Part shown: positions 7,001 to 27,357 of the stretch, piece by piece
How positions within the stretch are numbered: the stretch's first letter is position 1
Layout of the letters: every line of letters starts with the position of its first letter
Virus record (IMG/VR): IMGVR_UViG_3300030108_005072
Coordinates: 1 to 28,856 of that record
Reading direction: 5' to 3' (one strand)
DNA from: a virus
Length of the DNA stretch: 28,856 nucleotides
Notes under the pieces: generated by a model
The model's input: only the letters and a program-made list of their open reading frames with translations
The model's database searches: none
What the model was told of the DNA's origin: nothing
Made by a program: the position numbers and the translations under genes

Positions 7001-10000
7001 TGGTCTAACATCTACTGGAGATGGCACAATAGCATCTATCAATCCACAATTTGCATTCGTTAAAGACTCAAATGCCATTTTTGATTTAAGTGATTCATCT
7101 TTATCATATACGATTAGTGCAACATCATACCCCGCATTTCATTTTGATTTCTTTAAAGACATTAAATATAATGAAAAATATGAAACAAGTGGTGCTACCG
7201 CATCATTTGATGTATCAAGAACTGGTACAATAGGAGTGACAGGTGATGCGAAAGTAACACTTAAAGTAAATCAAAATACTCCCTCCAATCTCTATTATAA
7301 ATTATCACCTGTAAATGTTGCTGATAATTTAACAGAAAATAAAGATATAGTAATTGATGATGAAGTGTTTAATCATAATAATATTGCAACTTATGAGAGT
7401 GGTTATAATGGTGAGGTTAATATTGTATCTACTGGATCTACAACATTCCAATATGAAATAGAAAGTGAACCGGAGTTTAATTCTTACTCTGCATCAACAT
7501 CAACACTTAATTACGCAACGATATCCACGAGTGCGTATGGATCAATTGATCAAATAACAATCACTGAGCCTGGTGGTGGTTATCAAGTTGTCCCCGGAAT
7601 TACGACAATCACATCTGATGTTGGAAGTGGTGCAGTGATTGAAGTATTTTCATCATCAATCGGTAAACCAACAAAAGTAAGTATTGAAAATATTGGATTC
7701 GATTATCCTAGTGATAATACTTTAAGACCTGAAGCTTTATTCCCACAAGTTTTAAGAATTACTCCTTTAAGTGGATTTAAATCAATAGGTATAACATCAT
7801 TCGGAAAAGGATACAATCAAAATCCAAGTTTAGTTGTTTTAGATGGTGTAACTAAAAAACCAATAACAGATGCTGATTTAAAATATAATCCTGAAGAGGA
7901 AATTGTTGAAATTTTAGAAAATACAGAATCCTTAAATGATTCAACACCAACATTGATTCCGATTGGAAATCCAAATGGTATAAGAGCAAAAAATGTCACT
8001 TATGATAATTCTACTCAAGAAGTGACAGTGACAATGAAGAACACTTTCAGTGGCACATTAAATGCCATAGGTGAATATATTGATCCGTTCCCATTTAGCG
8101 TCGGTGATAAAGTTCTCGTTGAAAATGTAAGTGTTGGTGTGGGATCTACAGCATCTGGATACAATTCATCTGATTATGACTATGCTTTATTCACACTTAC
8201 GAAAGTTCATCCTAATTATGGTGGTGTTGGAATTGTTACCTATAGTATGGCAGAATTTTTGCAACAAAACACAGAGTTTCCCGGTATATTTAACGCAGTA
8301 AAATCTAATGCTACTTTAGTTCCTGAAAAATATTTTCCACAATTTGATGTAAAATTACAACCAACTGATTTTAGAATTAATGATGATATTCAATCGGTAG
8401 ATAGTTCTGGAACTGTTGTAAAGGGTGCAGTTTCCGCATGGAACAATTCAAGTAAGTATCTTACTGTTGAAAGTAATAGAGAGTTTGAAATAGGGCAGAT
8501 AATTGAGCAAACAAAATTTAGAGGGGAAAGGGGTAGTAATAATGAATATACAGCTCCAACTGGTGCGAAGGGTATCATCAAAGAAAAAATAAAATTTGAA
8601 ACAAAATACGATTTAGATTATTTTTCTATTGTTGACAATGGATGGCAAACTAGAACAGGATTCTTAAATGATGAGATTCAACGTGTTCATGATAATGATT
8701 ACTATCATGCTTTCTCATATTCTGTAAAATCAAAAATCCAATATGATGAATGGAAAGATATTGTTGGAACATTAAATCATACAGCAGGATTTAAAAAATT
8801 TGGCAATCTTCAAGTTGAATCTAAACTACCAAATGAAAGGTTTGATGATTTAATAGTTCGTCCAGAGAGTGTTGTTACAAAATTAGTTGATTTAATAAGT
8901 GTAGAGAGTCTACAGTCTTTTCATGATTTTGATTTAGTATCAGAAAATTATGTAGAAGGTTTTGAAAAACCTTTCTCTGACGAGTTTAACTTTAAATCAA
9001 GAATACTTACTGACTTCTCTGAATCGGTATCGAATAGAGTTGTCACGATTGATGACTTCAGTAATCTATTCAATAATAATCCAAGATCAACACCTTATGC
9101 AGATGTTTATCGAAATAGATTATCTGACGGTAGGACACAATTCTTTGTGGCTTATATTCAAGATAGGTTATTTACTGGTGAAAGACAGATCATGATTGTC
9201 AACACTTTACATGATACTGGTAAAGGTGTATCAATGATGAATCAATATGGATCAGTTGAAACCACTTTAGATTTGGGAACATTTGATTATGTAATAGATG
9301 GTATTGAATCAGTTCTTCGCTTTTATCCACATAAATCTAGAATCAATGATTATAACGTGGTGTTATGGTCATATCAAATTGACACAAATCAATTAGGTGT
9401 CTCTACAACCAATGTTGCTACGGCAACCACATCTATTCCAGCAGAACCATATGATCCAACAACATCTGAAGGATTAAATGGATCCCTTGTGAGCATTCAA
9501 TCTACATGTGTGTCAGTCGCTGGTGGTGCTGCAGGAACAGTATTCACACTCGCTGGTATTGGAACCACAGTTTCTGGACATAGATCTGCAAAACTATTTG
9601 TAAGTGTTGAGGCAAGTGATGGTAGTGTTGAATACGATCAAGTAAGTGTAATTCATGATGGTACAAATGTAGGGTTCCAAGAATATGGTCAATTAACTGT
9701 TCACTCAAGTGACGCATATTCATCAACTGGTAACATTGGTACTTTCTTCCCATTAATGGTTGGAAATGATCTTGTTGTAAGATATACACCAGACGCAGGA
9801 TTAACAACTGCCTTTGTAAATGCAACTGCAATTGGTATTGCGACTGAGGGATATATTGGTATCGGTTCATATGATATGGCTTATGCGGAGATGTCTGCAC
9901 AAAGCACAGGTATCTCGTCATCTGCAACACCAGTTCCTGTTGGTATCGCAAGTTATAGTGATGCTTATGATGCTGCGTATTGTATTGTTCAGATTGCTGA

Positions 10001-13000
10001 TAAGTTGAATGGAAGTTATGAATTAGCAGAAGTAATAATAATTGATGATTATACTGATGATGATAATGTATATCTTACAGAATTTGGTAATGTTAAAGTT
10101 GGAACAGCATTTGCTGGTCTTGGAACAATTAGTGGAAGAAGGACAACAAACAATATTACTGAAATAACATTTGTACCGAATGCGGGTATTGGAGTTTCAA
10201 TTACAACATTCTTGAATTCATTAAGAGTTGAAGAAAACACTGAGTTACTACCATCCGGTGCCACAAGAGAGGTTGGTGGTGAGGCTGTTAAAGACTTACA
10301 AAATGCTTCAATGGAAAGTGGATTTGCAAACTATGAGGGAACTGAATCAGCAATCAAGACTAAGTTTGCTCTAGAGCATAATGAAGATCCGATATTTAAA
10401 AAACCATATGATGGATCAGGATCTGAAGTTGTTAATGTCACTGCCAATACGATTACATTACCAAATCACTTCTTTGTAACCGGTGAAGAAGTTTCATATG
10501 CACACACAGATAGAAGAACTGGCATTTCATCTGCAATTGGCATAGCTTCAACATCATTCCCTGCTCTTGGTATAACAACCACTTTATTACCATCATCACT
10601 CTTCATTATTAAGAAAGGAGAGAATAAAGTTCAATTAGCAAGAACTGCTCAAGATGCTTTGAAAGAAGTTGCAGTCCCTCTTGATCTAACTCATGTTGGT
10701 ATTGGAACATCTCACACATTCACATCTAAGAATGCAAATACAAGAGTATTAGTTGCAATTGATAATTACCTTCAGTCACCAATCGCAGGAACATCAGTTA
10801 CAACAACTCTTGATAGATCAATCGACAAATCTCAAGATGTCATACATTTCTCAGGTATCACTTCATTCTTTGGTGCTGATAATGTTCGTGTAAGTAGTGG
10901 TAATACAAGCGAGGTGATGAAAATATTATCTGTTGGTATTGGAACAACAAATGGTATTAAAGTAAGAAGACAAAGATTAGGTACATCAATTGCAGGATTC
11001 CCAACTGGAGCATTAGTTGAGAAAATACGTGGTAATTATAATATTGTTGAAAATGAAATTACATTTGCAGAGGCACCTCCCGGAAAGAATCCAATAGGTT
11101 CAATTACAAATCCTCCTGATGAAAGAGACTTTGTTGGTATCACAACATCATCAAGTTTCCAAGGAAGAGTGTTTACTCGATCTGGTATTGTTAACGGAAC
11201 CACAGAAACCTACTCTACAAATCATTTGTATGATGATTTAACATCAGACTTTAATGGTAAAAATAGACAGTATGCACTTACTGTAGATAAAGCTCAGAAA
11301 ACTGGTATTGCTACAAATAATGCATTGATATTAATTAATGGTATATTACAAGCACCCGGATCAAATGGTGATTTCACATTAGAGACAGTTGGTTCTGGAA
11401 CAACAATCACATGGACTGGTGCTGCAAGTTCTGTAGCGAGGGATGTAAACACTGCAGGAATACCTGTTGGTGGAGTAATTATATCTGTTGCATCCACAAG
11501 TGGATTTGGATATCAACCATTAGTCTCTGCTGGTGGAACTGCTGTGGTATCATTAGCAGGAACAATCAATAGTGTAAGTATTGGTAATACGGGTTCTGGT
11601 TATAGATCAGGTATTCAAACTGTATCTGTAGGTTTACAAACTGAGGGATTTGATCAATCTGGTATTACAACTATTGGTCTTGCTAATGTCACTGATGGTC
11701 ATGTAACTAGCGTAAGTATTACTAATCCACAATTCTTCTATAAACCAAGGGACATTTATAATGTAGGTTACTCTTCAATTACTGGTATAACAACTATAAC
11801 CACTGCATTTGCACATAATCTATCCGTTGGTAATGAAGTAGTTGTATCTGGTATTGCATTTACTTGTGATTACGCTCCAGCTGTCGGAGTTCAAAGTGCA
11901 AACTATGATAATACAACTGGAATTATGACAGTCACTACATTAGCTGCTCATGGATTATCTACAACTGGTAAAAGTAGTGATGTTATATTAACTGGATTAG
12001 CATTTACATGTGGACTTGGTGCAACAGTCAATCACATATATCCAAGAAACAGAGATAGATTCTTTGATACTGCAATATCAGTTGCATCAACAACATCAAC
12101 CACCATTACATTAGACGTATCTAAATCTCCGATTGGTCAACAATATACTCACAGATTCATAGGTGCTGCAAGTAGTGCTGTAATACAAGGCGGTGATTAC
12201 TCTCACACATTCCGATATGCTCTTGAAAATGCGGTGACTACTGGTGTTGGAACTCAATTTACACCAACGAATGCAACATATAATGCATCAACTGGTGTGT
12301 TTGTTATATCAATACCTAATCACGGTTTATCTACAAATGATACAGTTGGTATTGGTACAAGTTCAATTGTATTCTCTTGTGAGATGGATAATTATGGAAG
12401 TGATCATCCATATCCAAGACCAACTGATCCGATAGCTGGCATTCAAACTGCAATTACTGCCGTCACTACAAACACCATTACACTGAATGTAGGCAAGTCT
12501 GAATTGAACTTCTATGACGTGTCTGATGCTTCCTACGCTGCTGATACAGGTGTATTAGTGTTAACCATAGGTGCTCACACATTATTACCCGGAAGAAGTA
12601 TAAAACTGAAAAAAGAGTCTCTAAGATTTACATGCTCTAAGAATAACTATGCTACACAACACAAGTATCCAAGAGAAGGAGATCCATATTTTGATGGAAC
12701 ACCAGTCGTAGGAGTTGCAAGTGCAACTCAATTTACAATTAATGTTGGAGTATCAACTGTTCCAACACAATATGTTTCTGGTGGATTTATTCAACCAGCG
12801 ATTATTGCACCAAGAGCAAATAATAATTCAGCAAGTGGTCAAGATGTAGCATTTGATGGTGCATCAGTAATTAGAGTTCTAAGTGCTACAGAGTTTGAAA
12901 TTAATAGTGGTATATCAACAAGAGCTCACCTTTATGCAAGAGGTGGTAGAGTTGACCAGTTAACTAAGATAGTCATCGATGACCCTCTATCATATAGTGA

Positions 13001-14816
13001 TTTACAATTAATTCATAGCACATCTAGTCCCGGATTTGCTGGATCTGAAGCAAGAGCAGATGTCGTTGTAAGTCAAGGATCTACTGTAATGGACTTTAAG
13101 ATTACTAACACCGGATATGGATATGGTGTTGGTGAGATACTAACATTATCATTAACAGGATCTGCTGGAATACCTACTACTTCAAGTTTTGTTGATACTC
13201 AAGAATTTAGAATTACAATCAATGACATATCAAGTGATAACTTTAGTGGATGGTCAGTAGGACAATTACAAGTATTGGATACTTTCCAAAATTTATTTGA
13301 TGGATCGAGAAGAACATTCCCACTAACTGTAGGTGGAGACTCATTATCAATTCAGGCTAAACCCGGATCACCAGTTACAGTTCAGGATACACTATTTGTA
13401 TTTGTCAATGATATACTACAAATACCCGGAGAATCATATACATTCTTAGGTGGTAGTAATATTACCTTCGACGAAGCACCTAAATTTGAAGATACTCTTA
13501 AAATACTATTCTATCGTGGGACAGGTGGTGCAGATGTTGTTGACAGAGATATTATTGAGTCTGTTAAAGTGGGTGATGATTTGACACTTGGTTATGCAAG
13601 ATCTCTTAATCAAGAAAGTTTCTTACAAGAGCAAACAAGAGGTGTTGTTGAAATAACATCATCTAACTCAGTTGATACAAACACATACAATGGCCCCGGT
13701 GTATTTGAAGATACTAGAGTTTATAGACCTATTGTTTGGACTAAACAAACTGAAGACAAAATTGTTGAAGGTAAGATAGTTCATAAAGATAGAGATCTAT
13801 ATAAGGGAAACTTATTCCCAACTACAAACTTTATTCAAACAGTTGGAGTTGGCACAACAGTTGCATATGTAACCGGTGTTAGACCATTCTTTAATGCTAA
13901 GAATGAGAATAATGTATCTACAGAGTTCCAGAAAAATATTGTTATTGTCAATAATGTTGAGAGACTAGCAGCTGCAGCGACTGCAATCGTATCTGCTGCT
14001 GGAACAATATCATCAGTTGCAATATCAACTGGTGGTAGAGGATATGATAGTGCACCAACTGTGACAATACAAAATCCAGTTGGACTTGGAACCACTGCTC
14101 GTGCAGAGGCAACTGCATCGATTACAAACGGTGTTGTCACAAGTATTACTGTTTCAACTGCTGGTACAGAATACAGTGATGCAACTCCACCAGTTGTTCT
14201 TATCGGTGCTGATCCTGTTCTTGAAGAACAGAACACAGTTATATCATATAATGGTGATCATGGTATTATTACTGGTATTGGAACTACATCTTTAGCTGGT
14301 GTTGCCGTAACTGGTATAGTATTTGATTTAGTGATTCCAGCGGATTCATTCTTAAGAAAATCTGAGTTTACACAGGGAGCATCAGGTTCGGGTACGAATA
14401 GTGGTATTGTTACATCTGGATTAAATGTTGGTGATTTCTTCATTGTAAGTAATTCAAATGTGGGTCATGGATTAACATCACTAAATACTGATGGCAGTGC
14501 TGTAGGTGTTGGTACAACTTACATTGATAATGTTTATCGCGTTGCTCATCGCACACTTGGCGTTACAACTGATGCGATGGGATTTGGTTCTACAGTTGTT
14601 ACACAAGTTGTAGTTAGTGTTAACAGTCTTAATGGTCTAACAGGATTAGGTCATAGCATGTACTTTGGTGATTATAGTTATGGTAAATTACAGTTGAATG
14701 ATCGAAACACAGTTCGTTCTTATCCAGTTAATACATCTAATGGGGTTACTGGTATATTGACAGGGCCAATCGTCAAGAGAAAGCAATTCTTAAAAACTCA
14801 AAGTTATTCCACATAA
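1005..14816 (+). CDS. Giant gp7-position baseplate protein with gp7-like N-terminus and many beta-rich modules (4603 aa)
   Basis: Probably a baseplate wedge protein extended outward by adhesive or spacer modules. It sits between gp6 and gp8, where T4 has gene 7 (about 1030 aa), so it is over four times longer. Residues 1-60 and about 155-230 include DFYSTRGTDESF (192-203) and a following LFGALYGEQVDI stretch, which closely resemble the C-terminal part of T4 gp7 as I remember it. The rest is modular. 'TGFP...I..E.ITY' modules lie at about 70-125 and 314-366. 'H..L.TGD.V.Y...YYV..V...T.KLA' modules recur from residue ~648 to ~3230. 'G.GY...P.I' repeats recur throughout. A YHYH domain spans about 1319-1414. 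A conserved block lies at about 2670-2795, a duplicated domain at 2861-3076, three FTC/YPR modules at 3632-3922, and two 'NG.LQ.PG' hairpin modules near 3411-3474 and 4096-4175. I saw no signal peptide or membrane segment. No clear Shine-Dalgarno precedes the ATG. Function beyond baseplate location is inference. Confidence 0.8.
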   Translation: MSEKRVKLNQIVKNQLPSYVQEDFPLVGSFLSQYYQGQEYQGGPVDLIQNIDSYIKLSECGSLVKSTNTTAYAGVTTSTIFVSNTTGFPDNYGLIKINDEVITYESKTDISFVNCKRGFSGITSFRNPSDPENLVFSTSTAENHENNTTVENLSVLFLDEFLKKAKNQFLHGFQKDLNEKVNKSQFIRQSKDFYSTRGTDESFNILFGALYGEQVDIIRPIDEVIKPSNADYRKTRDFIVEPYVGNPEDLKNRTLYQNEFENISKAYAPVGSVEKVAVGINTNTFYKISLDSGQSTPDGSTNLIYGDFSIHPKTTIIGQVGIAQTYIDVDSTLGFPNSGTLSFLYENGTSGVCTYSDKTINQFLGINTTGITTSISDNTAIDQNTFVYASDGESDTGIQVKIRGVLNNLIIAPNVSNQKVGSKIKIKNLGQIGQNIKENNWLFNTAQSYVVKSLSIIDAVNNTYKLVTKDVNVLRIGDKVTTHETLTEGTQWGDKFTSSFEPATNKLYVVTDVFDNNTCLIKGSGINDPTKITKVSRRISKVDSDIHDNLNKFTANIQNIYIKPDGGLVKGVPYYGPSHEHPTKGTLMVGEKHTSNFHETITPIEGQNKVYVTSSSLPFSGVTKLNPKTQKFTFSGTYNRNDEEIKISDQVDHNYYTGDAVYYTPQKGEVSTIDSEGKTIKQEYIISRLFAEGLYYVKRVDANTVKLAKSQSDIFGGIFTKVDPDGGVDNVTIASNDIEKYEFNGKTIEPQKLVREVSLPINDSQKEKTTPGYTGIFVDGVEVLNYKSKQFVYHGILENINVVKGGENYDIINPPVVAINDSIGSGATAVAAVRGSLQDIKIIDSGFDYIEEPIIKISGGNGIGANAVAKLNKIPHELIINGDGVGLGTIKLDAAGINTSSIGFTTYHRFRQGERVVYDPLGSIPIVGLATQATYYVSSVSEYTIQLHKNYDEAISGVNTISFTSYGSGVQSFKSLNGKSIVSSVVVLDGGSGYENKQRSCESTGISTALDIVNIPNHDFKNGEIVNYSVDGTAIDGLSTDKQYYVSVVNEDQFKLAAVGVGTTVSSFYINTKQFNAFRNTGVGTHTFNYPPISVEVIGRVGISSVSGNTFEASLQPIFRGEITSLQLTNTGVGYGASDIVDFNRVPEINLNTGRDAVITPVVSNGRIVDVSVSYGGTDYNSPPDLVVLGIGSDARLTPIMNSSGNITSVNIESSGIGYGATTTTVRVDASGKNAGFEPSIQKWRINNFRKNLANLNDDDVFISEPTNRLFGLQCSYVYAARNLRRISYASDADGKVLFGKKDLTLVNGVESDSDQHSPILGWAYDGNPIYGPYGYSRRDGGDIVQMRSGYVDETIKKTNRPPVSSFPPEFFVEDFTYQVSNDDSVLDENNGRFCVTPEYPNGTYAYFATLDSTAASDGIFKNFKKPKFPYLIGDKYNSKPNKFNFSRVSNQEDFDVNNINATRNTYALAVNKDFSGYDYFTESYKFINQDSNIDFVTKGGVNSVGITSGGINYKVNDKLVFDPNVDNAFEARARISRLKGSISEISISKETISGVKFLRTFGNGFVGIASTSLNLQNSVIVNVGGLSSTATDLIGPQEIGITSTKLILTQGIGTATATGIVTFLPVSGDLSRIRTNDRFKVGVSSEIVKVLEVDDLSSRIRVLRPVEFVGISHTQSTILEEIPRLFTFNSFLARTPQNKRDLENEGLFPTREEIEIYFNPRDSIGTSHADPDNETGIGNTITFNNPGAGNTTIIIPRGSIFLPNHSLQTGDIVNYELNGVNGSETAPKVKFFSATPTVDTTVGIGTSLFVIRKTDNLIGLSTVKVGIGSTGVRFGLGLTGTQPIFEEIQFLDVGIGSIHSLRLKNSDTISGNITRNVVNVVGTGTHGLKTNDIVYMDINPGINTTITVKYNKVRRKAIFNPLDYVAAGIKTSTSNDGVRDSININDHKLLTGDKIIHTSDSPIGLENNKEYYVYVVDSNTLKFVEERYILNQDFPDFVGLTSTGDGTIASINPQFAFVKDSNAIFDLSDSSLSYTISATSYPAFHFDFFKDIKYNEKYETSGATASFDVSRTGTIGVTGDAKVTLKVNQNTPSNLYYKLSPVNVADNLTENKDIVIDDEVFNHNNIATYESGYNGEVNIVSTGSTTFQYEIESEPEFNSYSASTSTLNYATISTSAYGSIDQITITEPGGGYQVVPGITTITSDVGSGAVIEVFSSSIGKPTKVSIENIGFDYPSDNTLRPEALFPQVLRITPLSGFKSIGITSFGKGYNQNPSLVVLDGVTKKPITDADLKYNPEEEIVEILENTESLNDSTPTLIPIGNPNGIRAKNVTYDNSTQEVTVTMKNTFSGTLNAIGEYIDPFPFSVGDKVLVENVSVGVGSTASGYNSSDYDYALFTLTKVHPNYGGVGIVTYSMAEFLQQNTEFPGIFNAVKSNATLVPEKYFPQFDVKLQPTDFRINDDIQSVDSSGTVVKGAVSAWNNSSKYLTVESNREFEIGQIIEQTKFRGERGSNNEYTAPTGAKGIIKEKIKFETKYDLDYFSIVDNGWQTRTGFLNDEIQRVHDNDYYHAFSYSVKSKIQYDEWKDIVGTLNHTAGFKKFGNLQVESKLPNERFDDLIVRPESVVTKLVDLISVESLQSFHDFDLVSENYVEGFEKPFSDEFNFKSRILTDFSESVSNRVVTIDDFSNLFNNNPRSTPYADVYRNRLSDGRTQFFVAYIQDRLFTGERQIMIVNTLHDTGKGVSMMNQYGSVETTLDLGTFDYVIDGIESVLRFYPHKSRINDYNVVLWSYQIDTNQLGVSTTNVATATTSIPAEPYDPTTSEGLNGSLVSIQSTCVSVAGGAAGTVFTLAGIGTTVSGHRSAKLFVSVEASDGSVEYDQVSVIHDGTNVGFQEYGQLTVHSSDAYSSTGNIGTFFPLMVGNDLVVRYTPDAGLTTAFVNATAIGIATEGYIGIGSYDMAYAEMSAQSTGISSSATPVPVGIASYSDAYDAAYCIVQIADKLNGSYELAEVIIIDDYTDDDNVYLTEFGNVKVGTAFAGLGTISGRRTTNNITEITFVPNAGIGVSITTFLNSLRVEENTELLPSGATREVGGEAVKDLQNASMESGFANYEGTESAIKTKFALEHNEDPIFKKPYDGSGSEVVNVTANTITLPNHFFVTGEEVSYAHTDRRTGISSAIGIASTSFPALGITTTLLPSSLFIIKKGENKVQLARTAQDALKEVAVPLDLTHVGIGTSHTFTSKNANTRVLVAIDNYLQSPIAGTSVTTTLDRSIDKSQDVIHFSGITSFFGADNVRVSSGNTSEVMKILSVGIGTTNGIKVRRQRLGTSIAGFPTGALVEKIRGNYNIVENEITFAEAPPGKNPIGSITNPPDERDFVGITTSSSFQGRVFTRSGIVNGTTETYSTNHLYDDLTSDFNGKNRQYALTVDKAQKTGIATNNALILINGILQAPGSNGDFTLETVGSGTTITWTGAASSVARDVNTAGIPVGGVIISVASTSGFGYQPLVSAGGTAVVSLAGTINSVSIGNTGSGYRSGIQTVSVGLQTEGFDQSGITTIGLANVTDGHVTSVSITNPQFFYKPRDIYNVGYSSITGITTITTAFAHNLSVGNEVVVSGIAFTCDYAPAVGVQSANYDNTTGIMTVTTLAAHGLSTTGKSSDVILTGLAFTCGLGATVNHIYPRNRDRFFDTAISVASTTSTTITLDVSKSPIGQQYTHRFIGAASSAVIQGGDYSHTFRYALENAVTTGVGTQFTPTNATYNASTGVFVISIPNHGLSTNDTVGIGTSSIVFSCEMDNYGSDHPYPRPTDPIAGIQTAITAVTTNTITLNVGKSELNFYDVSDASYAADTGVLVLTIGAHTLLPGRSIKLKKESLRFTCSKNNYATQHKYPREGDPYFDGTPVVGVASATQFTINVGVSTVPTQYVSGGFIQPAIIAPRANNNSASGQDVAFDGASVIRVLSATEFEINSGISTRAHLYARGGRVDQLTKIVIDDPLSYSDLQLIHSTSSPGFAGSEARADVVVSQGSTVMDFKITNTGYGYGVGEILTLSLTGSAGIPTTSSFVDTQEFRITINDISSDNFSGWSVGQLQVLDTFQNLFDGSRRTFPLTVGGDSLSIQAKPGSPVTVQDTLFVFVNDILQIPGESYTFLGGSNITFDEAPKFEDTLKILFYRGTGGADVVDRDIIESVKVGDDLTLGYARSLNQESFLQEQTRGVVEITSSNSVDTNTYNGPGVFEDTRVYRPIVWTKQTEDKIVEGKIVHKDRDLYKGNLFPTTNFIQTVGVGTTVAYVTGVRPFFNAKNENNVSTEFQKNIVIVNNVERLAAAATAIVSAAGTISSVAISTGGRGYDSAPTVTIQNPVGLGTTARAEATASITNGVVTSITVSTAGTEYSDATPPVVLIGADPVLEEQNTVISYNGDHGIITGIGTTSLAGVAVTGIVFDLVIPADSFLRKSEFTQGASGSGTNSGIVTSGLNVGDFFIVSNSNVGHGLTSLNTDGSAVGVGTTYIDNVYRVAHRTLGVTTDAMGFGSTVVTQVVVSVNSLNGLTGLGHSMYFGDYSYGKLQLNDRNTVRSYPVNTSNGVTGILTGPIVKRKQFLKTQSYST
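4960..5245 (+). other. YHYH-type domain inside the giant baseplate protein
   Basis: Residues about 1319-1414 read GWAYDGNPIYGPYGY, then an acidic linker, then LDENNGRFCVTPEYPNGTYA. The family pattern is 'GWAYDG.PIYGP' followed by 'LDE.NGRF..TPEYP.GTYHYH'. The order and spacing fit the YHYH domain (Pfam PF14240 as I recall). The terminal YHYH signature is degenerate here (TYAYFAT), so any metal binding through those histidines is doubtful. The family's function is unknown. Confidence 0.8.
9585..10230 (+). repeat. Two divergent copies of one ~86-residue beta domain
   Basis: Copy 1 is 9585-9843 and copy 2 is 9972-10230, both in the frame of the giant gene and 387 bases apart. Shared landmarks in order are a first strand (AKLFVSVEASDG against AYCIVQIADKLNG), a 'V.VIHDGTNV' against 'V.IIDDYTDDDNV' turn, then 'F.EYGQLTV' against 'LTEFGNVKV', then 'GTF' or 'GTI', then 'YTPDAG' against 'FVPNAG'. 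Similar '.EYG.V' domains are, from memory, frequent in marine phage virion proteins. The copies are diverged, so this is an old duplication. Confidence 0.7.
11898..12770 (+). repeat. Three tandem FTC/YPR modules in the giant protein
   Basis: Copies begin at 11898, 12273 and 12528, spaced 125 and 85 residues apart. Each starts with 'A.Y...TG...V' (ANYDNTTGI, ATYNASTGV, ASYAADTGV). It then has a 'H.L' turn, a strand ending in FTC or FSC, and 'H.YPR..D' (HIYPRNRD, HPYPRPTD, HKYPREGD). A fourth partial copy just upstream near 11806-11880 has AHNLSVGNE and AFTC but no YPR. The conserved Cys, His and Tyr-Pro-Arg are the diagnostic residues. Function is unknown; a repeated stalk or binding module is the natural reading. 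Confidence 0.75.
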
Positions 14817-16392: not shown

Positions 16393-19300
16393 ATGGCTCA
16401 AACCACTAATTTAAACGTATCGCCATACTTTGACGATTTTAATTCAGACGACAACTACTATAAGGTGTTGTTTAAGCCTGGATTGCCCGTTCAAGCAAGA
16501 GAGTTAACTGGTTTACAATCTATATTACAAAATCAAATTGCTAAGTTTGGTCAGCATTTTTTCAAAGAAGGATCAAAAGTAATACCCGGAAACACACAAT
16601 ATAATGATAATTTTGATTGTATTCAAATCAATAATGAATATCTTGGTATAACAGTACAATCATATGTTGATCAATTACTAAATCAAAAAATAATCGGAGC
16701 AACAACTGGAGTAAGCGCGACAGTTGTGAAAATATTAAGTGCAGAAGAATCAGAACAAAACACCCTTACACTTTATGTTCAATATGAATCATCTGGTGAC
16801 ATCACAACTGATTTTGATGATTTTGATGATGGCGAAAATTTAATTACAAATATTGATATATTATCTGGAGCAGAAAATAGCACCTTCATACCTGCTGGAG
16901 AGACTTTTGCAACTACTATATCCTCTAATGCAGCAGCTACAGGAGCTGCTTTCTCAGTGAATGAGGGAGTTTATTTCATCAGAGGAAATTTTGTAACTGT
17001 AAATACACAAACCATAATACTTGATCAATATGATAATATTCCGACTGGTAGAGTTGGATTAAAGATTTTAGAGGAAACAATAAATTCGGACGAAGATCCA
17101 AATCTTACAGATAATTCAAAAGGGTTTAACAACTTCGCTGCACCGGGTGCAGATAGATTAAAAATATCATGCACTTTACATTTCAAAGATTCAGATGATT
17201 TAAATGATGATGACTTTGTTGAATTAGCATCATTTGTAAATGGTGATGTTAAAACACAAACTACAACAACTCAATATAATCTTATCGCAGATGAACTAGC
17301 AAGAAGAACTTTTGATGAATCTGGAGATTACATTACAAAACCATTTTCAATAAAAGTAAGAGAGTCTGCAAATAATTTAGTTGGAAATAATGGTGTCTAT
17401 CCTGACGGTGGAGAAACAGAAGATGGTGGAGAGGCAAGTGATGAATTAGGTTTATATCAAGTTTCTTCGGGTAAAGCGTATGTAAAAGGATATGAAGTTA
17501 CCAAAACTGGAGTGGAATTTGTAGACTTTGATAAACCAAGGGATGTATTAGAACTTAAAAATCAATCTATACCTTATAAAACTGGAGCATCATTAAGATT
17601 GAATCGCGTGTTAGGAGCTCCTGAAGTTGGTGTTGGTAACACATATATCGTGAGTCTTAGAGATCAAAGATCAGGTTCTCAAAGCGCAGCTAATATTATG
17701 TCTGCTCCCGGAGAGGAAATAGGTTTAGCAAGAGTATATGATTTTGCACTTGAGTCAGGTTCCTATAATACGTCGAATGCAAATATTAACGAATTTGATA
17801 TTTCATTGTATGATATTCAAACATTCACAAAGATTACTTTAAACGCTAATCATACACTCTCAACTCCTACTTTTGTTAAGGGAAAGTATAGTAATGCTAC
17901 AGGATTTTTAAGATCATCAATATCAGCGACAACATCTCTACAGGTTTATGAAACATCGGGAGAGTTTATTCCAAATGAACCATTAATATTTAACGGTGTT
18001 GAAAATTCTCGCGTATCAGTCGCAATTACAAGTTTTGGAGTAAGAGATGTTAAATCATTATATGCTGGCCCTGATATGGATCCGATTGGATTTGGTAGAA
18101 CTTTTACAGGTGATGTTAAATTAAAAGATGAATTTGTTTTAGGAAATGGACTTTTAAAAAGATCTGATCTAACCACAGGATTAAGCACAATAACAAGTTC
18201 AAATTCACAGTTTCCTGCAAAGTTGAAAGTCGGAAACATATTGAAATTTGGAGCAGGTAATAATGACCCAAATTTTGCTAGAGTTACCGCTGTTGGAACA
18301 AATGATATAACTGTCACTGGTATAACAACAGTATCGGGAGTATGTGATGGTGGTTTAGTTATAGGTGATCCTACGACTGCTGAAACGACACTTTCAGATC
18401 TCACATTAGTGTCAAGTCAATTTGAAAAATCAGATGATAATACGCTTTACACTCCAATGCCAAAGAGTATAATATCTGACGTTATATTAGATAATGCAAC
18501 TTTATCGATAAGGAAAGTATTCAACGTAGCAATAAGCGCATCAACTGATGAATTATCAACAGCTGTTCAAGCTGGTGACAATGAAACATTTTTACCTTTT
18601 GATGAGGAAAGATACAGTTTAATACGTGCAGACGGAACAACTGAACTTCTTACTGATGATAAATTTACTTTTACAAATGGTAATGGAACACTTCAAATAA
18701 GTAACATAGGATCAGATTTAAGTGCTAATCAAGAAGCAACCTTAGTTGCAACTTTAAATAAAGTAAAACCAAAAGCAAAAGTAAAGAGAAAAAAAGAGGT
18801 TAATTCTATATTAGTTGATAAATCAAAATTATCAGGATCTGGAATTGGAAATACAACTTTAAATGATGGATTAACTTTTGGAAGTTATCCTTTTGGAACT
18901 CGTGTGCAAGATGAGAAAATATCACTTAACACACCTGATGTATTAGATATACATGGAATTTTTGAATCAACTGATACAAGCGATCCATCTGCGCCAAAAT
19001 TAACATTGTCATCAATAAACACTGTTAATGGAAGCACCACAGATTTATTAGTTGGTGAGATAATAGAAGGAAAAACATCTGGCACACTTGCAATTTTTGC
19101 TGAACAATTATCAGATTCTCAGATATCATGCATTCCAGTTAATGAAAGTGAATTTATTGAAGGAGAACCTGTATTTTTTGAAAGCTCAAATGTTCAAGCA
19201 GTATTAAACACTGTTGATGTTCCTTCAAGAAACATATCCGCAGACTTCACATTTAATACAGGACAAGGAGATACTTTATATAATCATGGATTTGTAACAA

Positions 19301-22300
19301 GAAAGAGTGGTGTAGATGCACCATCTAAAAAAATAAGAATATATTTTGCAAATGCATTCTTTGAATCTGATGACACTGGAGATATCACCACTGCAAACTC
19401 TTATGATGATTTAGATTTCAAACTAGATGTGCAAACAGTTAATGAATATCGTAATACTGATTTAATTGATATCAGACCTAGAGTTTCTGACTACACTGTT
19501 GCTGAGAGTGATAGATCACCTTTAGAATTTTTAGGTAGATCATTAAACGGATCAGGAAATTCAGCTGCAAATATATTAGCCTCTGATGAATCAATCACTA
19601 CTGATTTTTCATTCTTTCTAGGAAGAATAGACAAATTATGTCTAACAAAATATGGTGGTATTGTTTTATCTCAAGGAACATCTGCAGAACAACCTGAACC
19701 ACCAATTTCGGCTGATGATTCTCTAGAATTAGCAACCATTACTCTTCCACCATATCTTTTTGATGTTTCAGAGGCAAGCATGTCATTCTTGAAACATAAG
19801 AGATATAGGATGAAGGATATAAGAGATCTTGAAACAAGAATTAAAAATCTAGAATACTATACTTCACTTACATTACTTGAGACAACAACAGCGAATTTAT
19901 TTGTCCCTGATGAGGACGGATTAAATAAATTTAAGTCAGGATTTTTTGTTGATAATTTTACTACTTTTCAACCACAAGAAAGTGAGATTCCAATAAAAAA
20001 CAGTATTGACTCCACAAATAAAGAATTAAGACCTTCACATTATACAAATGCAATAGATTTACAAGTTGGCCCTGTTGAAGCAGATACCATTTATGAAACG
20101 GGAGCTCAACCTGAAGGTGAAGGTATACGAAAAACAGGTGATGTAATCACACTTGATTATGATGAAGTTCAGTACCTTAGACAACCTTTCGGAACAAGAA
20201 GTGAAAGTGTTACTCCCTTCTTACTTAATTTTTGGGAGGGAATAGTAAAATTATCTCCCGGCAGTGATACTTGGGTAAATACCGTTAAAGTTGAACCCAA
20301 CGTATTTTCGATTGAAGGAAATTTTGAAGATACTATAAGAACTGCTGAAAGAAAGTTTGGTGGTTTTGATCCACAGAGTGGTTTAACAAGCACTATTTGG
20401 GGTGGTTGGCAAACCCTTTGGACAGGTACAAAAACTAATTCAAGAGTTAGAAAAAGAAAGGAAGTAACATCAAGAAGTAAAAGTCGAAGAAATAGTGGTA
20501 ATAGATGGAGAGATGTTGAAAAAACAACTACAACTACTTTCCAAGATAGATTTACTGACCGTTTTAAAACAGGAACATCATCCAGAGAGGGTTCAAGACA
20601 ACTTATCACAGAGCAATTTGATCGAACATCATTAGGTGAAAGAGTGCTTAGTACTGAAGTTACTCCAACTATTAGATCAAGAAACGTTTCTTTTGATGGA
20701 AGGGGATTCAAACCACAATCAAGACTTTATTCTTTCTTTGACGGAGTAAATGTTACCAAGTATTGTGTTCCAAAATTAATTGAAATAGAAATGGTGTCAG
20801 GAACATTTAATGTTGGTGAAACAATTACCGGAACAGTAAAATCTGATCCAAATGTATCATCGGAAACACCTTACATTCAATTTAGAGCCGCAGTTCCAAA
20901 TCATAAAGAAGGGCCTCATGATACACCAACAAGAGTTTATTCGAGAAATCCATATACCGATACTCAAGTTGCAGAATTAGCTTTAGAAACTTTTGCAGGT
21001 AATGTGGGTCAAGTTTTAGCAAACTCACAAGGAACAACTGCAGTGGTGCCTAGTGCATATTCATCAACTTCAACATTAGTTAACGTAGATATTGTTTCTC
21101 TTGCAAATCAACCGCAGGGTGATTTTTATGGATATATCCAAGAAGGAATGATATTAAAAGGTGGAACTTCAGGTGCTGAAGCAAAAATAACAAATTTAAG
21201 ATTTATCACTGACTTTGCTTCAACAATTCAAGGTAGTTTCTTTATCCCAGATCCTAACAAAAATACAAATCCCACATTCCAAACTGGAGAAAGAGCTTTT
21301 GTATTAACAGATAGTCCTGCAAATGATCCTGAAGAGATGACAACTCAGGGTGCAGATATTTACCACTCAAGTGGGTCGATCAACACAGTTCAAGAAAATG
21401 TAGTTTCAGTAAGAAATGCAAAAGTTGTTGTTATTGGAACTGAGGAATCTAGATCTGTATCACAAGAAGTTGGAACCACTGTTGAAACTGATGTGATCGG
21501 AACTGATACAACTGAAAGAATAGTAGCAGAAGGACAGAGAAGATCAGGTGGTTCAAGAAGAAGGAGAAATAAAAGACGACCAACAAAGCCAAAAAATGGG
21601 GTTTGCAAAGCTAATGATAGAAAATCGTTTAACAAGTGCAAAAGACCTAGTAGTAAAGCTGGGACAAGAAGAGGAACTCAAGGTGGATTTGGTGGTGGTA
21701 CAGGTAATCCGACTAATAGAAGAGGATCTGGTTTTTCAAGGAGAAAAAAAAGCAAAGGTAGCAGCGGAGGATCTTCAGGAGGAGGATCAAAGGGAGGAGC
21801 AAGTAGTAAGAGAGCTGGTAGTAAGAATAAGAGAGGATCTGGAATGCGCGGAAGACGCGGAAGGAGAGGTGGAAGAAGAGGTGGAGCAAGAGATCCTTTG
21901 GCACAGTCATTCTTCGTAAGCGAACAGAATGGTATCTTCTTAACAAGTTGTGATGTCTTCTTTGAAAGAGTTGATGATAATGGTGTGCCTGTATCAGTTG
22001 AATTAAGAACAGTTAAACTTGGTTTACCAACTAATGAAGTTGTTCCTTTCTCTCAGGTTAATTTAGATCCAGATCAAATTACAACTTCATCTAATGGATC
22101 TGTTGGTACTAAATTTACATTTGAATCACCTGTTTATCTTGAGGGTGGAGGTGAATATGCTTTAGTCGTTCTTTCTACATCACTCAAGTATAGAGTTTTT
22201 ATATCACGAGTAGGTGAAAACGATTTAGTTACTGATGAATTTGTTTCAAATCAACCATTACTAGGGTCATTGTTTAAATCACAAAACGCATCTACTTGGG

Positions 22301-24417
22301 AACCAAGTCAATGGGAAGATCTTAAGTTTACTTTAAACAGAGCATCATTTGTTGCAGATGGTTTTGTTAACTTATATAATCCAATTTTATCAAGAGGAAA
22401 TTATCAAATTCCTAATTTGATGCCTGACTCACTTCGACTTCATTCAAAAAAAGTTAGAGTTGGTTTATCGTCTGCATTTGGTGCTGGTATTCATCCAACA
22501 TTAGGAAATACGATATATCAACAAGGATCAAATGTCACTGGTAATTTAGTAGGAACAGCTGGTGCTGCGTCTGGAAGTATGAGTCTCACAAGGGCTGGTA
22601 TTGGATATACATCAGCAAATGCTTCTGTTGCTTCTCGTGATGGCACTGGACATACCGTGGCAGGAGTTGCTTTATCAACGATAACTGGAAGCGGTGTAAA
22701 TGCAAAAGCCAGCGTTGTCTATAATGATGGAGCAGTCGTGAGCGCAACAATTACATCTGGTGGTCAAGGATATCAAGTTGGTGATTTGTTAGGAATTACT
22801 ACTGACTTAGGTATTAATGGAAGATTATCTGTTGTATCAATTGCTGCAACTAGCGAATTAATTATTGATAATGTTCAAGGTGCATTTTTGACTGGTGCTG
22901 GAACGACTCTGATGTATGGAACAGTAGATGGCGATGTCGGATCTACTAAAGCAGGAGTTGGTAGTGCAATATGTGGTAATGGTGGATCTGTCGGTGCAAA
23001 TATACCTGATGATACAATTATATCTGTGTCTGATGGTTTACATATAACTGTAAATCATAAAAACCATGGTATGTATCATGAACAAAACTTAGTCACCATA
23101 TCTGACGTGTCACCTGATTTGACTCCTACTAAGTTGTCAGTTCCATACAACAACAGTTCAACAGATCCGATTACTGTAAATAACATTGGTATTCTCACAA
23201 CTTTTGAAAATGTTGCCGTTGCTGCAACGAACCCCGGATATGTAAAAGTTAAAAATGAAATTATTAAATACACTGGTGTATCAGCATTCTCAGGTCAAGG
23301 CACGTTAACAGGTGTGACACGAGCACAAGATTCAACATCTGCTCAAAATTACATAAAAGGTGATCTTGTTCAAAAATATGAATTGGGTGGTGTATCATTG
23401 CGTCGTATAAATCGAACACATGATTTCAGAGAGGTCACTGAAACTAATCCTATCACACTTGATTCTTATAAAATTAAATTAGACATGGGTGAGCAGGGAA
23501 TAGGAAGAAGCACATCAACTGTTTCAAGTTACCCAGCTTTATTCCTGAATCAAACTAAATCAGCTGGAGGATTTAATATTCACGCAACACAAAATATGCC
23601 ATTTGAAGTTATCACACCAATGATTCAAAATATGACTGTTGCAGGAACAGCCCTTGGTGCAGAGGTTAGAACAGTAAGTGGAACAAGTATAAACAATGGT
23701 TCGGGTGAGGGAACAGATGTTCCATTTATAGTTCAACTTGGTGAAACTCTCTCTATAAATGAAATAAATTATTTTGATACTCCAAGACTTATTGCATCAA
23801 GAGTTAACGAAACAAATACATCAACCATAAATGTTTTGGCAGGAAGTCGTTCATTTAATATGACTTTGAATCTCTTCGCATTAAATAATCGAATTTCACC
23901 TGTGATCGACACAACAAGAATGAGTGCGATTCTTACAAGTAATCGAATTGATAATGTCATTACTGATGTTACTGAAGATAATCGAGTTGATACATTACTT
24001 GATGATCCATCAGCAGCTACATATGTCTCAAAGGAGAATACTCTAGAAACATCTGCAACATCATTAAGAATTATTGTTGATGCTCATGTCAGCGAATCTA
24101 ATGATATCAAAGCATTTTACGCGATAAGTGAATCGGAGGGATTTGAACCTATATTCAGACCTTTCCCCGGATATGATAATTTAGATGAAAATGGTAGAGT
24201 TAAAACCAATGATAAGAGTAGTGGTAGACCTGATGCGTTGATACCAAAATCAGATGAAACTGGATTCATACCAGAAGAACTTGAATATAAAGAATATACA
24301 TTTACCGCGAATGAACTACCATCATTTAAATCTTTCAGAATTAAATTCTTGATGACAACTACCAATCAGGCATTCGTGCCTAGATTGACAAGTCTAAAAG
24401 TGATTGCAACTGCCTAA
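16393..24417 (+). CDS. Giant DUF4815-family baseplate/tail-fibre protein (2674 aa)
   Basis: Virion structural protein, probably at the baseplate periphery or in the host-contact fibres. It occupies the place of T4 genes 9-12 and wac. The N-terminus (YFDDFNSDDNYYKVLFKPG, then 'LQARELTGLQSILQ'-like residues, actual text VQARELTGLQ) is typical of DUF4815 (PF16075 from memory). Other landmarks are SSGKAYVKGYEV near 358, a helical ETRIKNLEYYTSLTLLE segment near 1143, GFKPQSRLYSFFDG at 1438-1451, a 118-residue Arg/Lys/Gly/Ser tract at 1716-1833, and DPLAQSF at 1834-1840. After that come a conserved block ending in SLFKSQNASTWEP, 'G.GY' repeats at about 2065-2140, and an 'I..EIIKYTG..TRA' module at about 2270-2331. 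The C-terminal domain ends VPRLTSLKVIATA. Two smaller basic clusters lie at 790-802 and 1347-1374. No clear Shine-Dalgarno is seen. The stop overlaps the next start as TAATG. Family assignment is confident; the role is inferred from context. Confidence 0.85.
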   Translation: MAQTTNLNVSPYFDDFNSDDNYYKVLFKPGLPVQARELTGLQSILQNQIAKFGQHFFKEGSKVIPGNTQYNDNFDCIQINNEYLGITVQSYVDQLLNQKIIGATTGVSATVVKILSAEESEQNTLTLYVQYESSGDITTDFDDFDDGENLITNIDILSGAENSTFIPAGETFATTISSNAAATGAAFSVNEGVYFIRGNFVTVNTQTIILDQYDNIPTGRVGLKILEETINSDEDPNLTDNSKGFNNFAAPGADRLKISCTLHFKDSDDLNDDDFVELASFVNGDVKTQTTTTQYNLIADELARRTFDESGDYITKPFSIKVRESANNLVGNNGVYPDGGETEDGGEASDELGLYQVSSGKAYVKGYEVTKTGVEFVDFDKPRDVLELKNQSIPYKTGASLRLNRVLGAPEVGVGNTYIVSLRDQRSGSQSAANIMSAPGEEIGLARVYDFALESGSYNTSNANINEFDISLYDIQTFTKITLNANHTLSTPTFVKGKYSNATGFLRSSISATTSLQVYETSGEFIPNEPLIFNGVENSRVSVAITSFGVRDVKSLYAGPDMDPIGFGRTFTGDVKLKDEFVLGNGLLKRSDLTTGLSTITSSNSQFPAKLKVGNILKFGAGNNDPNFARVTAVGTNDITVTGITTVSGVCDGGLVIGDPTTAETTLSDLTLVSSQFEKSDDNTLYTPMPKSIISDVILDNATLSIRKVFNVAISASTDELSTAVQAGDNETFLPFDEERYSLIRADGTTELLTDDKFTFTNGNGTLQISNIGSDLSANQEATLVATLNKVKPKAKVKRKKEVNSILVDKSKLSGSGIGNTTLNDGLTFGSYPFGTRVQDEKISLNTPDVLDIHGIFESTDTSDPSAPKLTLSSINTVNGSTTDLLVGEIIEGKTSGTLAIFAEQLSDSQISCIPVNESEFIEGEPVFFESSNVQAVLNTVDVPSRNISADFTFNTGQGDTLYNHGFVTRKSGVDAPSKKIRIYFANAFFESDDTGDITTANSYDDLDFKLDVQTVNEYRNTDLIDIRPRVSDYTVAESDRSPLEFLGRSLNGSGNSAANILASDESITTDFSFFLGRIDKLCLTKYGGIVLSQGTSAEQPEPPISADDSLELATITLPPYLFDVSEASMSFLKHKRYRMKDIRDLETRIKNLEYYTSLTLLETTTANLFVPDEDGLNKFKSGFFVDNFTTFQPQESEIPIKNSIDSTNKELRPSHYTNAIDLQVGPVEADTIYETGAQPEGEGIRKTGDVITLDYDEVQYLRQPFGTRSESVTPFLLNFWEGIVKLSPGSDTWVNTVKVEPNVFSIEGNFEDTIRTAERKFGGFDPQSGLTSTIWGGWQTLWTGTKTNSRVRKRKEVTSRSKSRRNSGNRWRDVEKTTTTTFQDRFTDRFKTGTSSREGSRQLITEQFDRTSLGERVLSTEVTPTIRSRNVSFDGRGFKPQSRLYSFFDGVNVTKYCVPKLIEIEMVSGTFNVGETITGTVKSDPNVSSETPYIQFRAAVPNHKEGPHDTPTRVYSRNPYTDTQVAELALETFAGNVGQVLANSQGTTAVVPSAYSSTSTLVNVDIVSLANQPQGDFYGYIQEGMILKGGTSGAEAKITNLRFITDFASTIQGSFFIPDPNKNTNPTFQTGERAFVLTDSPANDPEEMTTQGADIYHSSGSINTVQENVVSVRNAKVVVIGTEESRSVSQEVGTTVETDVIGTDTTERIVAEGQRRSGGSRRRRNKRRPTKPKNGVCKANDRKSFNKCKRPSSKAGTRRGTQGGFGGGTGNPTNRRGSGFSRRKKSKGSSGGSSGGGSKGGASSKRAGSKNKRGSGMRGRRGRRGGRRGGARDPLAQSFFVSEQNGIFLTSCDVFFERVDDNGVPVSVELRTVKLGLPTNEVVPFSQVNLDPDQITTSSNGSVGTKFTFESPVYLEGGGEYALVVLSTSLKYRVFISRVGENDLVTDEFVSNQPLLGSLFKSQNASTWEPSQWEDLKFTLNRASFVADGFVNLYNPILSRGNYQIPNLMPDSLRLHSKKVRVGLSSAFGAGIHPTLGNTIYQQGSNVTGNLVGTAGAASGSMSLTRAGIGYTSANASVASRDGTGHTVAGVALSTITGSGVNAKASVVYNDGAVVSATITSGGQGYQVGDLLGITTDLGINGRLSVVSIAATSELIIDNVQGAFLTGAGTTLMYGTVDGDVGSTKAGVGSAICGNGGSVGANIPDDTIISVSDGLHITVNHKNHGMYHEQNLVTISDVSPDLTPTKLSVPYNNSSTDPITVNNIGILTTFENVAVAATNPGYVKVKNEIIKYTGVSAFSGQGTLTGVTRAQDSTSAQNYIKGDLVQKYELGGVSLRRINRTHDFREVTETNPITLDSYKIKLDMGEQGIGRSTSTVSSYPALFLNQTKSAGGFNIHATQNMPFEVITPMIQNMTVAGTALGAEVRTVSGTSINNGSGEGTDVPFIVQLGETLSINEINYFDTPRLIASRVNETNTSTINVLAGSRSFNMTLNLFALNNRISPVIDTTRMSAILTSNRIDNVITDVTEDNRVDTLLDDPSAATYVSKENTLETSATSLRIIVDAHVSESNDIKAFYAISESEGFEPIFRPFPGYDNLDENGRVKTNDKSSGRPDALIPKSDETGFIPEELEYKEYTFTANELPSFKSFRIKFLMTTTNQAFVPRLTSLKVIATA
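21538..21891 (+). repeat. Low-complexity Arg/Lys/Gly/Ser-rich (RGG-like) tract
   Basis: Encodes residues 1716-1833 of the DUF4815 protein. By hand count it has about 26 Arg, 15 Lys and a single Asp in 118 residues. Its parts in order are an SRRRRNKRRP cluster, a short segment with the only two Cys (GVCKANDRKSFNKCKR), Gly-rich and Ser-Gly runs (GSSGGSSGGGSKGG), and MRGRRGRRGGRRGG. The coding strand is strongly purine-rich. The tract ends exactly where the conserved DPLAQSF block begins, so it looks like an inserted, probably disordered linker. It reads in frame with the conserved blocks on both sides. Confidence 0.85.
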
Positions 24418-25932: not shown

Positions 25933-27357
25933 ATGGTTCTCAATCCCTTTTTTCAGCAAGGATCTACTAATGAGCAGAACCTAGTTCAATCTCTTATAAA
26001 TGAACAACTCCAAATATATGGAGTCAATGTTCATTATATGCCAAGAAAATATGCAAATAGCAATACAATAATCAAAGAAGTTATTGAATCTAAATTTGAT
26101 GATGCGTATCCAATTGAAGCTTACGTTGAATCTTTCGACGGATATGGAGAAAATCCCACACTTTTATCAAAATTTGGTATTCAGGCAACAAATGAATTAA
26201 CACTTACAATATCAAGAGATAGATTTGAAACTTACATCTCACCTCTGATGAAGAATGAGGCAGATGTGAGAATATCAACTCGACCTAAAGAGGGAGACTT
26301 AGTTTATTTTCCTCTTGGTGATCGTTTATTTGAAATAAAATATGTTGAGCATGAGCAACCATTTTATCAATTAAAAAAGAACTACGTATATACTCTTCGT
26401 TGTGAACTCTTTCAATATGAGGATGAGGTCATTGACACTGGTATTGATGCAATTGATGATACACTCGCAGCAACAGAAGGTGCAGATGGTGAAGATTTCA
26501 TTATTGGTGGAACACAAGTATTAACTTTGGTTGGAACTGCATCGAGTGCGTCTGCTGTAACTACGGTTATCAACGGTGGTATTCAGTTTATTGATATCAC
26601 AAATCGCGGGCGTAATTATACATTTGCTCCAAGAGTTGCGATATCATCAGCACCAACAGGTGGAGTTACTGGTATTGCTACCGCAAATCTTCGTGGCGGA
26701 ATTGTTGTTTGCACTGGTGCTGCAGATCCCGGAAATCAAGTTGCAAGTGTTGTACAAAGTATAAACTTAGTAAATCCCGGATCAGGATATACAACAGGCC
26801 CTGATATTCAAATATTTGGTGATGGCGTAGGTGCTGCAGCCACCGCAGGAATGGCAAACGGAACTATCGGTATCGTAACGATTACAGGTGGTGGTTCTGG
26901 ATATACAACAACTCCAACGATAACATTTACAGGATTATCAACAGTGTCTGCTGCTGCAACTGCAATCGTATCTACAGCAGGAACAATTAGTGCAATTCAT
27001 ATTACAAATGCTGGTGCTGGATATACAACTGTACCAACAATTGCAATCGCTCCTCCAGCAGCTAGTGATGCTGTTGGCAACTTCCAATTTAATGAAGTAA
27101 TCACCGGTGGAACAAGTGGTGCGACTGCAAGAGTTAGAGATTGGAATAGCACTACAAGTGAACTTAAGATATCAAATGTAGAAGGAGTATTCATACAGAA
27201 AGAGACTGTGACTGGTGGAACATCTGGCGCAGTTCATACGATAAGAGTTATTGATCTTACTAATTTTGATGACGGATTTGGTGATAATGATAACTTTGAA
27301 ACAGAAGCAGATTCAATATTAGACTTCTCAGAAGGCAATCCTTTTGGTCAACCATAA
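25933..27357 (+). CDS. gp14: Neck protein gp14 with a ~250-residue beta-repeat insertion
   Basis: Partner of gp13 in the neck. Residues 1-185 match T4 gp14. 'VNVHYMPRKY' parallels T4 'VECYYVPREY', 'FDGYGENPTLLSKFGIQ' parallels the T4 'FEGYEGAKSFFSNFGMQ', and EGDLVYFPLGDRLFEI at about 121-136 parallels EGDLIYFPMDNSLFEI. The C-terminus ends FSEGNPFGQP, parallel to the T4 '.SPFDNDF' end. Between them, at about residues 190-439, lies an insertion absent from T4 gp14 (256 aa against 474 here). It consists of four 'G.GYT..P.I' repeats followed by two GGTSGA-type motifs. The insertion is in frame and does not damage the conserved ends, so it should be surface-exposed. The stop codon lies within a late promoter core for gp15. 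A weak TAGGAT upstream may act as Shine-Dalgarno. Confidence 0.9.
   Translation: MVLNPFFQQGSTNEQNLVQSLINEQLQIYGVNVHYMPRKYANSNTIIKEVIESKFDDAYPIEAYVESFDGYGENPTLLSKFGIQATNELTLTISRDRFETYISPLMKNEADVRISTRPKEGDLVYFPLGDRLFEIKYVEHEQPFYQLKKNYVYTLRCELFQYEDEVIDTGIDAIDDTLAATEGADGEDFIIGGTQVLTLVGTASSASAVTTVINGGIQFIDITNRGRNYTFAPRVAISSAPTGGVTGIATANLRGGIVVCTGAADPGNQVASVVQSINLVNPGSGYTTGPDIQIFGDGVGAAATAGMANGTIGIVTITGGGSGYTTTPTITFTGLSTVSAAATAIVSTAGTISAIHITNAGAGYTTVPTIAIAPPAASDAVGNFQFNEVITGGTSGATARVRDWNSTTSELKISNVEGVFIQKETVTGGTSGAVHTIRVIDLTNFDDGFGDNDNFETEADSILDFSEGNPFGQP
26500..27250 (+). repeat. 'G.GYT..P.I' beta-repeat array inserted in gp14
   Basis: The repeat units are IDITNRGRNYTFAPRVAI (from 26590), LVNPGSGYTTGPDIQIFG (from 26767), VTITGGGSGYTTTPTITF (from 26875) and HITNAGAGYTTVPTIAI (from 26998). 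The last three are spaced about 36 and 41 residues apart. Each unit is a strand, a Gly-Tyr-Thr turn and a second strand, joined by Gly/Ala-rich linkers. Two GGTSGA motifs, 30 residues apart, follow at about 27107-27230. The limits are estimated by comparison with T4 gp14. Confidence 0.8.

Follow-up and report, generated by a model that had tools for sequence, protein, structure and literature searches.

A paper on pelagimyophages (PMC7029224) describes VrlC as a baseplate protein that replaces gp7 of T4 and assigns it to baseplates of the two-layered type. VrlC of the phages S-SM2, Bellamy and SynMITS9220M01 resembles the protein described here along its full length (49-53% identity), in gene order after gp8 and in the domain that starts with the motif DPLAQSF. 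These three proteins have no insert at the joint in front of this motif, whereas ours has a basic tract of 118 residues. The DUF4815 chain of Staphylococcus phage phi812 (PDB 9EUF/9EUI) has a homologous DPLAQSF domain, but this chain of 1152 aa passes into it through a short ordinary junction without basic tract or Hint domain. At this joint Synechococcus phage S-SCSM1 also has an insert that is long and basic, but made up of Pro-Arg dipeptide repeats ending in NDDD and not of R, K, G and S.

Two other groups of sequences invite comparison. Domains of the BIL type are found in hypervariable regions and can self-cleave, according to a review (PMC7765530). The Hint (intein-like) domains that we found at the joint in relatives share Cys1, the block-B His and the C-terminal His-Asn with the A-type BIL domain of PDB 2LWY, and like the A-type they have no Cys, Ser or Thr at position +1 and lie in a hypervariable region. 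They differ in their location in a conserved phage baseplate protein, in a +1 residue that is always Lys or Arg, and in being often arranged in tandem. Eukaryotic RGG boxes and protamines are Arg/Gly-rich, disordered and polycationic, as the tract is, but have no homology to it, and the tract has few RGG and belongs to a virion protein; the similarity is one of resemblance alone. Our literature search found no paper on DUF4815 structure or on Hint domains in phage baseplates.

The VrlC gene and its neighbourhood

The window is the whole stretch of DNA analysed, 28,856 nucleotides of the IMG/VR virus record IMGVR_UViG_3300030108_005072. Its features around the joint are as follows.

16393..24417, + strand: gene of the VrlC/DUF4815 baseplate protein, 2674 aa (Pfam, phrog_358, homologues, gene context)
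20443..20523, + strand: second, weaker basic stretch RVRKRKEVTSRSKSRRNSGNRWRDVEK, residues 1351-1377, in the variable segment after the GGWQTxWTG block
20674..21375, + strand: upstream beta-rich region, residues 1428-1661 (AlphaFold2 pLDDT mostly 72-95, one low-confidence loop)
21376..21891, + strand: predicted disordered inter-domain linker, residues 1662-1833 (pLDDT, hypervariability in relatives)
21538..21891, + strand: polybasic tract, residues 1716-1833, with 41 K/R, 1 D, 30 G and 17 S
21604..21606, + strand: Cys1738, not conserved
21637..21639, + strand: Cys1749, not conserved
21892..22371, + strand: DPLAQSF beta domain, residues 1834-1993, homologous to residues ~791-945 of the phi812 baseplate chain

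The protein matched DUF4815 of Pfam with 186.8 bits (cut-off 30) and phrog_358 with 1978 bits over its full length. Full-length homologues in cultured T4-like cyanophages are 34-53% identical to it, the best of them coming from Synechococcus phages (49-53% over ~95% of the length). Genes for a gp6-like wedge protein, a 4603-aa YHYH protein and a gp8-like wedge protein lie upstream, and those downstream match families of connector, sheath-stabiliser and small-terminase proteins; the neighbourhood of VrlC in T4-like cyanophages is similar. The profile match and the gp6-like and gp8-like baseplate neighbours place the protein in the VrlC/DUF4815 family, and its relatives point to a cyanobacterium as the host of the window phage.

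Two neighbours have peculiarities of their own. The YHYH-domain protein (window 1005-14816), between the gp6-like and gp8-like genes, is very large. The C-terminal part of a head-closure-like protein (25933-27357) matches many unrelated structural-protein families and is probably an added repeat domain.

Composition and charge of the basic tract

The tract (21538-21891) is in frame within the open reading frame 16393-24417. The preliminary description had counted about 41 Arg or Lys and a single acidic residue among 118, and this count proved exact; the contrast that it drew with an otherwise acidic or neutral protein is also borne out, the tract having a net charge of +40 and the rest of VrlC -107. 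No other 118-residue window of VrlC is as basic, the runner-up outside the tract reaching +15 near residue 1345. The weaker stretch at 20443-20523 has likewise basic counterparts in loci L007 and L010.

The C-terminal end of the tract (...MRGRRGRRGGRRGGAR) directly adjoins DPLAQSF, as had been noted, and six of the seven positions of this motif are invariant in 40 aligned relatives. Likeness to an RGG box holds for the last ~15 residues only, where two adjacent RGG form the di-RGG RRGGRRGG; these are the only two RGG among the 118 residues, which include seven RG and little aromatic content (three residues). Both cysteines exist, but the disulfide proposed for them is disfavoured since relatives do not keep them: a single one is present in L095, and neither L003 nor L096 has any. 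A search of Pfam and NCBIfam with the tract segment gave no match, and identity with protamines was rejected on this ground and on the internal position of the tract in a baseplate protein.

How much of this charge could come from base composition? As a null model we used 2000 dinucleotide-preserving shuffles of the tract DNA. Shuffled DNA gave a net charge of +17.2 +/- 6.2 with a maximum of +36, against the actual +40, and predicted ~16 acidic residues and 7 stops, against one and zero. Although the tract DNA is 73% purine, its charge beyond the shuffles is therefore not a by-product of purine-rich DNA, and chance or composition is ruled out as its origin. Charge beyond base composition was also seen in L003, L096, L130 and L121 and more weakly in L095 (P 0.002). 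Read in another phase, such purine-rich DNA encodes Glu; in the phase actually used it encodes Arg, Lys and Gly, which suggests that the sign of the charge is under selection. Arg and Gly codons are used in the tract as in the rest of the gene, giving no sign of a foreign insertion as its source. Related tracts lie on independent contigs in L003 and L096, so that the window tract is no assembly accident.

Structure around the joint

Residues 1428-1993 were modelled by AlphaFold2 with a 40-row alignment of relatives. In this model the linker has no secondary structure and a pLDDT of 36-51 per block, across the tract as well, with folded domains on either side, which favours the disordered hinge among the roles suggested earlier; this disorder is read purely from AlphaFold confidence, and low-complexity sequence always receives low scores. 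The DPLAQSF domain is homologous to the solved phi812 baseplate DUF4815 chain (9euf), with E 4.7e-40 by sequence and 2.5e-8 by Foldseek.

Diversity of the joint among relatives

We read the joint in 266 loci, including 13 cultured or single-cell records, and retained 143 after dereplication that had enough upstream sequence. Both the length and the composition of the joint are hypervariable among these 143 relatives. The majority have no insert (for example ...VNFWY-DPLAQSF), and the other fillers include polyproline, acidic NVT repeats ending in NNDD, Gly runs and Arg-rich tracts, with Pro-Arg repeats in the cultured S-SCSM1 and a Lys-rich segment in DSL-LC03. Most cultured T4-like cyanophages that were read have no insert or a neutral or acidic filler. 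Relatives lacking a basic insert are evidently viable; VrlC can therefore do its core job without positive charge at the joint.

A net charge of at least +4 in the last 12 residues before DPLAQSF was found in 21% of the 143 relatives, whereas none of the 12-mers of the downstream domain (0%) reached it. Long basic tracts recur at the joint in at least three clades, with separate ones in the L121/L123/L130 clade, in the L200-L208 clade and in S-SCSM1. Within the window's own clade, all members without Hint have strongly basic tracts (the window, L003, L095, L096, L004-L006 and L101). The window and L003 are 88% identical in the 300 residues downstream and 83% in the 300 upstream, but only 50 of 116 aligned linker residues are identical, and the net charges are +40 and +48. 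Much of this identity belongs to two shared stretches, TERI..A at the N-terminal end and RG.GMRGRRGRRGGRRGGAR at the C-terminal end; the last ~20 tract residues are conserved and most of the remainder has turned over. In these comparisons, what the clade keeps at the joint is charge, not sequence.

Some further peculiarities of the joint deserve mention. NVT/EVT repeat linkers of variable length ending in NDD occur there in L089, L122-L128 and L132-L139 (P-TIM68-like phages). Breaks of ~10 bases lie in or near the joint in the stored sequences of L002/L095, L018/L102 and L009/L109, and contig L096 terminates inside its own tract, which together suggest trouble in assembling low-complexity DNA.

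Hint domains at the joint

Twenty-four distinct metagenomic VrlC alleles carry one or two Hint domains at the joint (loci L007, L009, L010, L102, L105, L113, L114, L116, L287-L290 and L301-L334), and in seven of them, L010 included, the domains are in tandem. In the sister clade of the window (L007-L010, L102, L104, L105) the basic tract encloses a Hint domain of 142 residues, CFMPGTLMTLADGS...TEDHPF...HTYIANNFVAHN, followed by K. The window itself represents the Hint-free state of the joint.

The Pfam family Vint was matched above its cut-off (31.3 versus 27), with E <= 0.001 in 11 of the 12 aligned members, and a profile of the domain matched the BIL domain 2lwy (1e-10) and several inteins in PDB, among them a DnaB intein (2e-8). 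The catalytic Cys and His-Asn are retained: C1 is invariant in the alignment, as is H64, and apart from one truncated row every sequence has H141 and N142. In a count not conditioned on K/R, all 23 distinct alleles have Lys or Arg after His-Asn, and in many alleles DPLAQSF comes directly after this residue. A canonical (class 1) intein, which needs Cys, Ser or Thr at +1, is thus rejected. No match to a homing endonuclease was found in these domains of 142-162 aa; mini-inteins lack it too. By sequence the Hint domains at the joint are A-type BIL-like, and they are predicted to cleave or splice. AlphaFold modelling of the domain from nine close rows gave a pLDDT of 38, too low for a usable structure.

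The much more distant VrlC proteins of L113 and L114 have, at the same joint, a Hint domain with 87-88% protein identity to that of L007, and L116 has a partial copy of this type. Between L105 and L113 the DNA identity is 87.5% over a block of 518 bp, which holds Hint with ~75 nt of its RGG flank, and 65-77% over the other alignable parts. A block so much more alike than its surroundings indicates horizontal transfer into the same site. The dN/dS among copies of this subfamily is 0.12-0.36, so that the domain is under purifying selection. A wider scan added further Hint forms at the VrlC joint, ~40% identical. With two Hint queries, tblastn against 50,697 annotated phage records found none in VrlC, and host bacteria were rejected as the source after a scan of GTDB genomes gave only 28-29% matches. 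Related Hint domains also occur in non-VrlC phage proteins (L312, L315, L324, L328, L335-L347), often flanked by Pro-, Gly- or Ser-rich sequence.

As a general fact, the compared sequences indicate that the joint accepts inserts, with the basic tract and Hint as two of its occupants.

Possible explanations of the tract

The tract is a real, non-random and rapidly evolving polybasic linker in a known protein, for which a function can be inferred. The explanation towards which we lean, with somewhat more confidence than doubt, is that of a long disordered spacer at an exposed, insertion-tolerant joint, whose charge selection keeps for use as a tether. Its parts drawn from sequence are position, charge, predicted disorder, the hypervariable nature of the joint, and the charge that the clade retains despite turnover of its sequence. 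Selection would keep the spacer basic as a flexible polyelectrolyte tether between one half of VrlC and the other. Most likely the tether would lie on an acidic surface, either of VrlC itself, given the charge of the protein without the tract, or of neighbouring virion proteins, or else would touch the anionic host envelope. Because the same joint tolerates foreign domains, it has been colonised in relatives, the sister clade among them, by Hint domains whose predicted action is to cleave or splice VrlC at this place.

The tract might instead be a neutral filler, a disordered spacer drifting through repeat expansion in purine-rich DNA, with a charge of no function. Neutral linkers, which the preliminary description took as the sign of such drift, do occur in the family as a whole but not in the window's clade. 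The fillers of relatives differ greatly, from polyPro, NVT repeats and Gly to none, the DNA is of low complexity, and stored contigs are broken at or near the joint (L002/L095, L018/L102). We nevertheless hold drift unlikely, since shuffles of the same composition produce the acidic residues and stops that the tract avoids, the window clade retains charge while its sequence turns over, and basic solutions have been repeated in separate clades (L121/L123/L130, L200-L208). That the tract makes the landing baseplate adhere to the host envelope with its negative charge (LPS) has a distinctly low probability in our estimation: the linker is polycationic and probably exposed, VrlC is placed in the two-layered class of baseplates (PMC7029224) and its phi812 homologue sits within baseplate structures, but the hosts of relatives that lack the tract are cyanobacteria of the same kinds. 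Nucleic-acid binding of the RGG type, proposed earlier from the end of the tract, can draw on the di-RGG and the seven RG, yet K-rich, poly-R and Pro-Arg versions occupy the same site, RGG and aromatic residues are few, it is not obvious which nucleic acid a protein of the tail tip would partner, and polycations bind nucleic acid non-specifically, so that specific binding is very improbable. An overprinted gene whose +1 frame encodes another product, the basic tract being its shadow, has almost no credit with us. A 123-codon alternative-frame ORF does span the tract (21548-21919), but this frame is an acidic low-complexity mirror interrupted by stops in L003 and L095, and purine-rich DNA opens the +1 frame by itself.

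Could the tract be tied to the mobile Hint module, either as a remnant after Hint loss or as a landing pad? All seven Hints of the CFMPGT type counted, those with a readable N-flank, lie within R/K/G tracts and have N-flanks of net +9 to +18. In three clades the nearest Hint-less tips have basic tracts ending in RRGGR, RRGGAR or RRGGRGG, similar to the Hint C-flanks KRGGR and KGG, and the block shared by L105 and L113 includes the RGG flank. Against this, the window tract has no profile match to a Hint relic, and no Cys1...His-Asn pattern occurs on either strand of the window. The CFMPGT-type Hint of L287, truncated by the contig end, has just a weakly basic flank (QPRRNQGGMG), and in 16 further Hint alleles at this site the N-flank has a net charge between -5 and +5, which indicates that Hint does not require a basic tract. 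The link is not a general one but is confined to the CFMPGT subfamily, where it holds in most cases, and we regard such an origin of the window tract as rather doubtful. The joint might also be a processing point of VrlC, cut or spliced by a resident Hint in many uncultured phages and, in Hint-free phages such as that of the window, cut at the same place within a protease-labile polybasic linker, so that VrlC would act as two chains in the mature baseplate; we give this little chance. The charged tether is retained here as the working explanation.

Meaning of the joint

The larger point concerns the joint itself rather than the tract. Abundant marine phages have, in one of their core baseplate proteins, a joint that freely takes basic tracts, repeats and intein-like domains. 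Relatives with no insert and with neutral, acidic, basic or Hint inserts form a matched natural set for probing the role of a charged linker in the tail. The Hint alleles would place Hint domains within a conserved virion machine, and would make self-processing of a baseplate protein by the phage testable.
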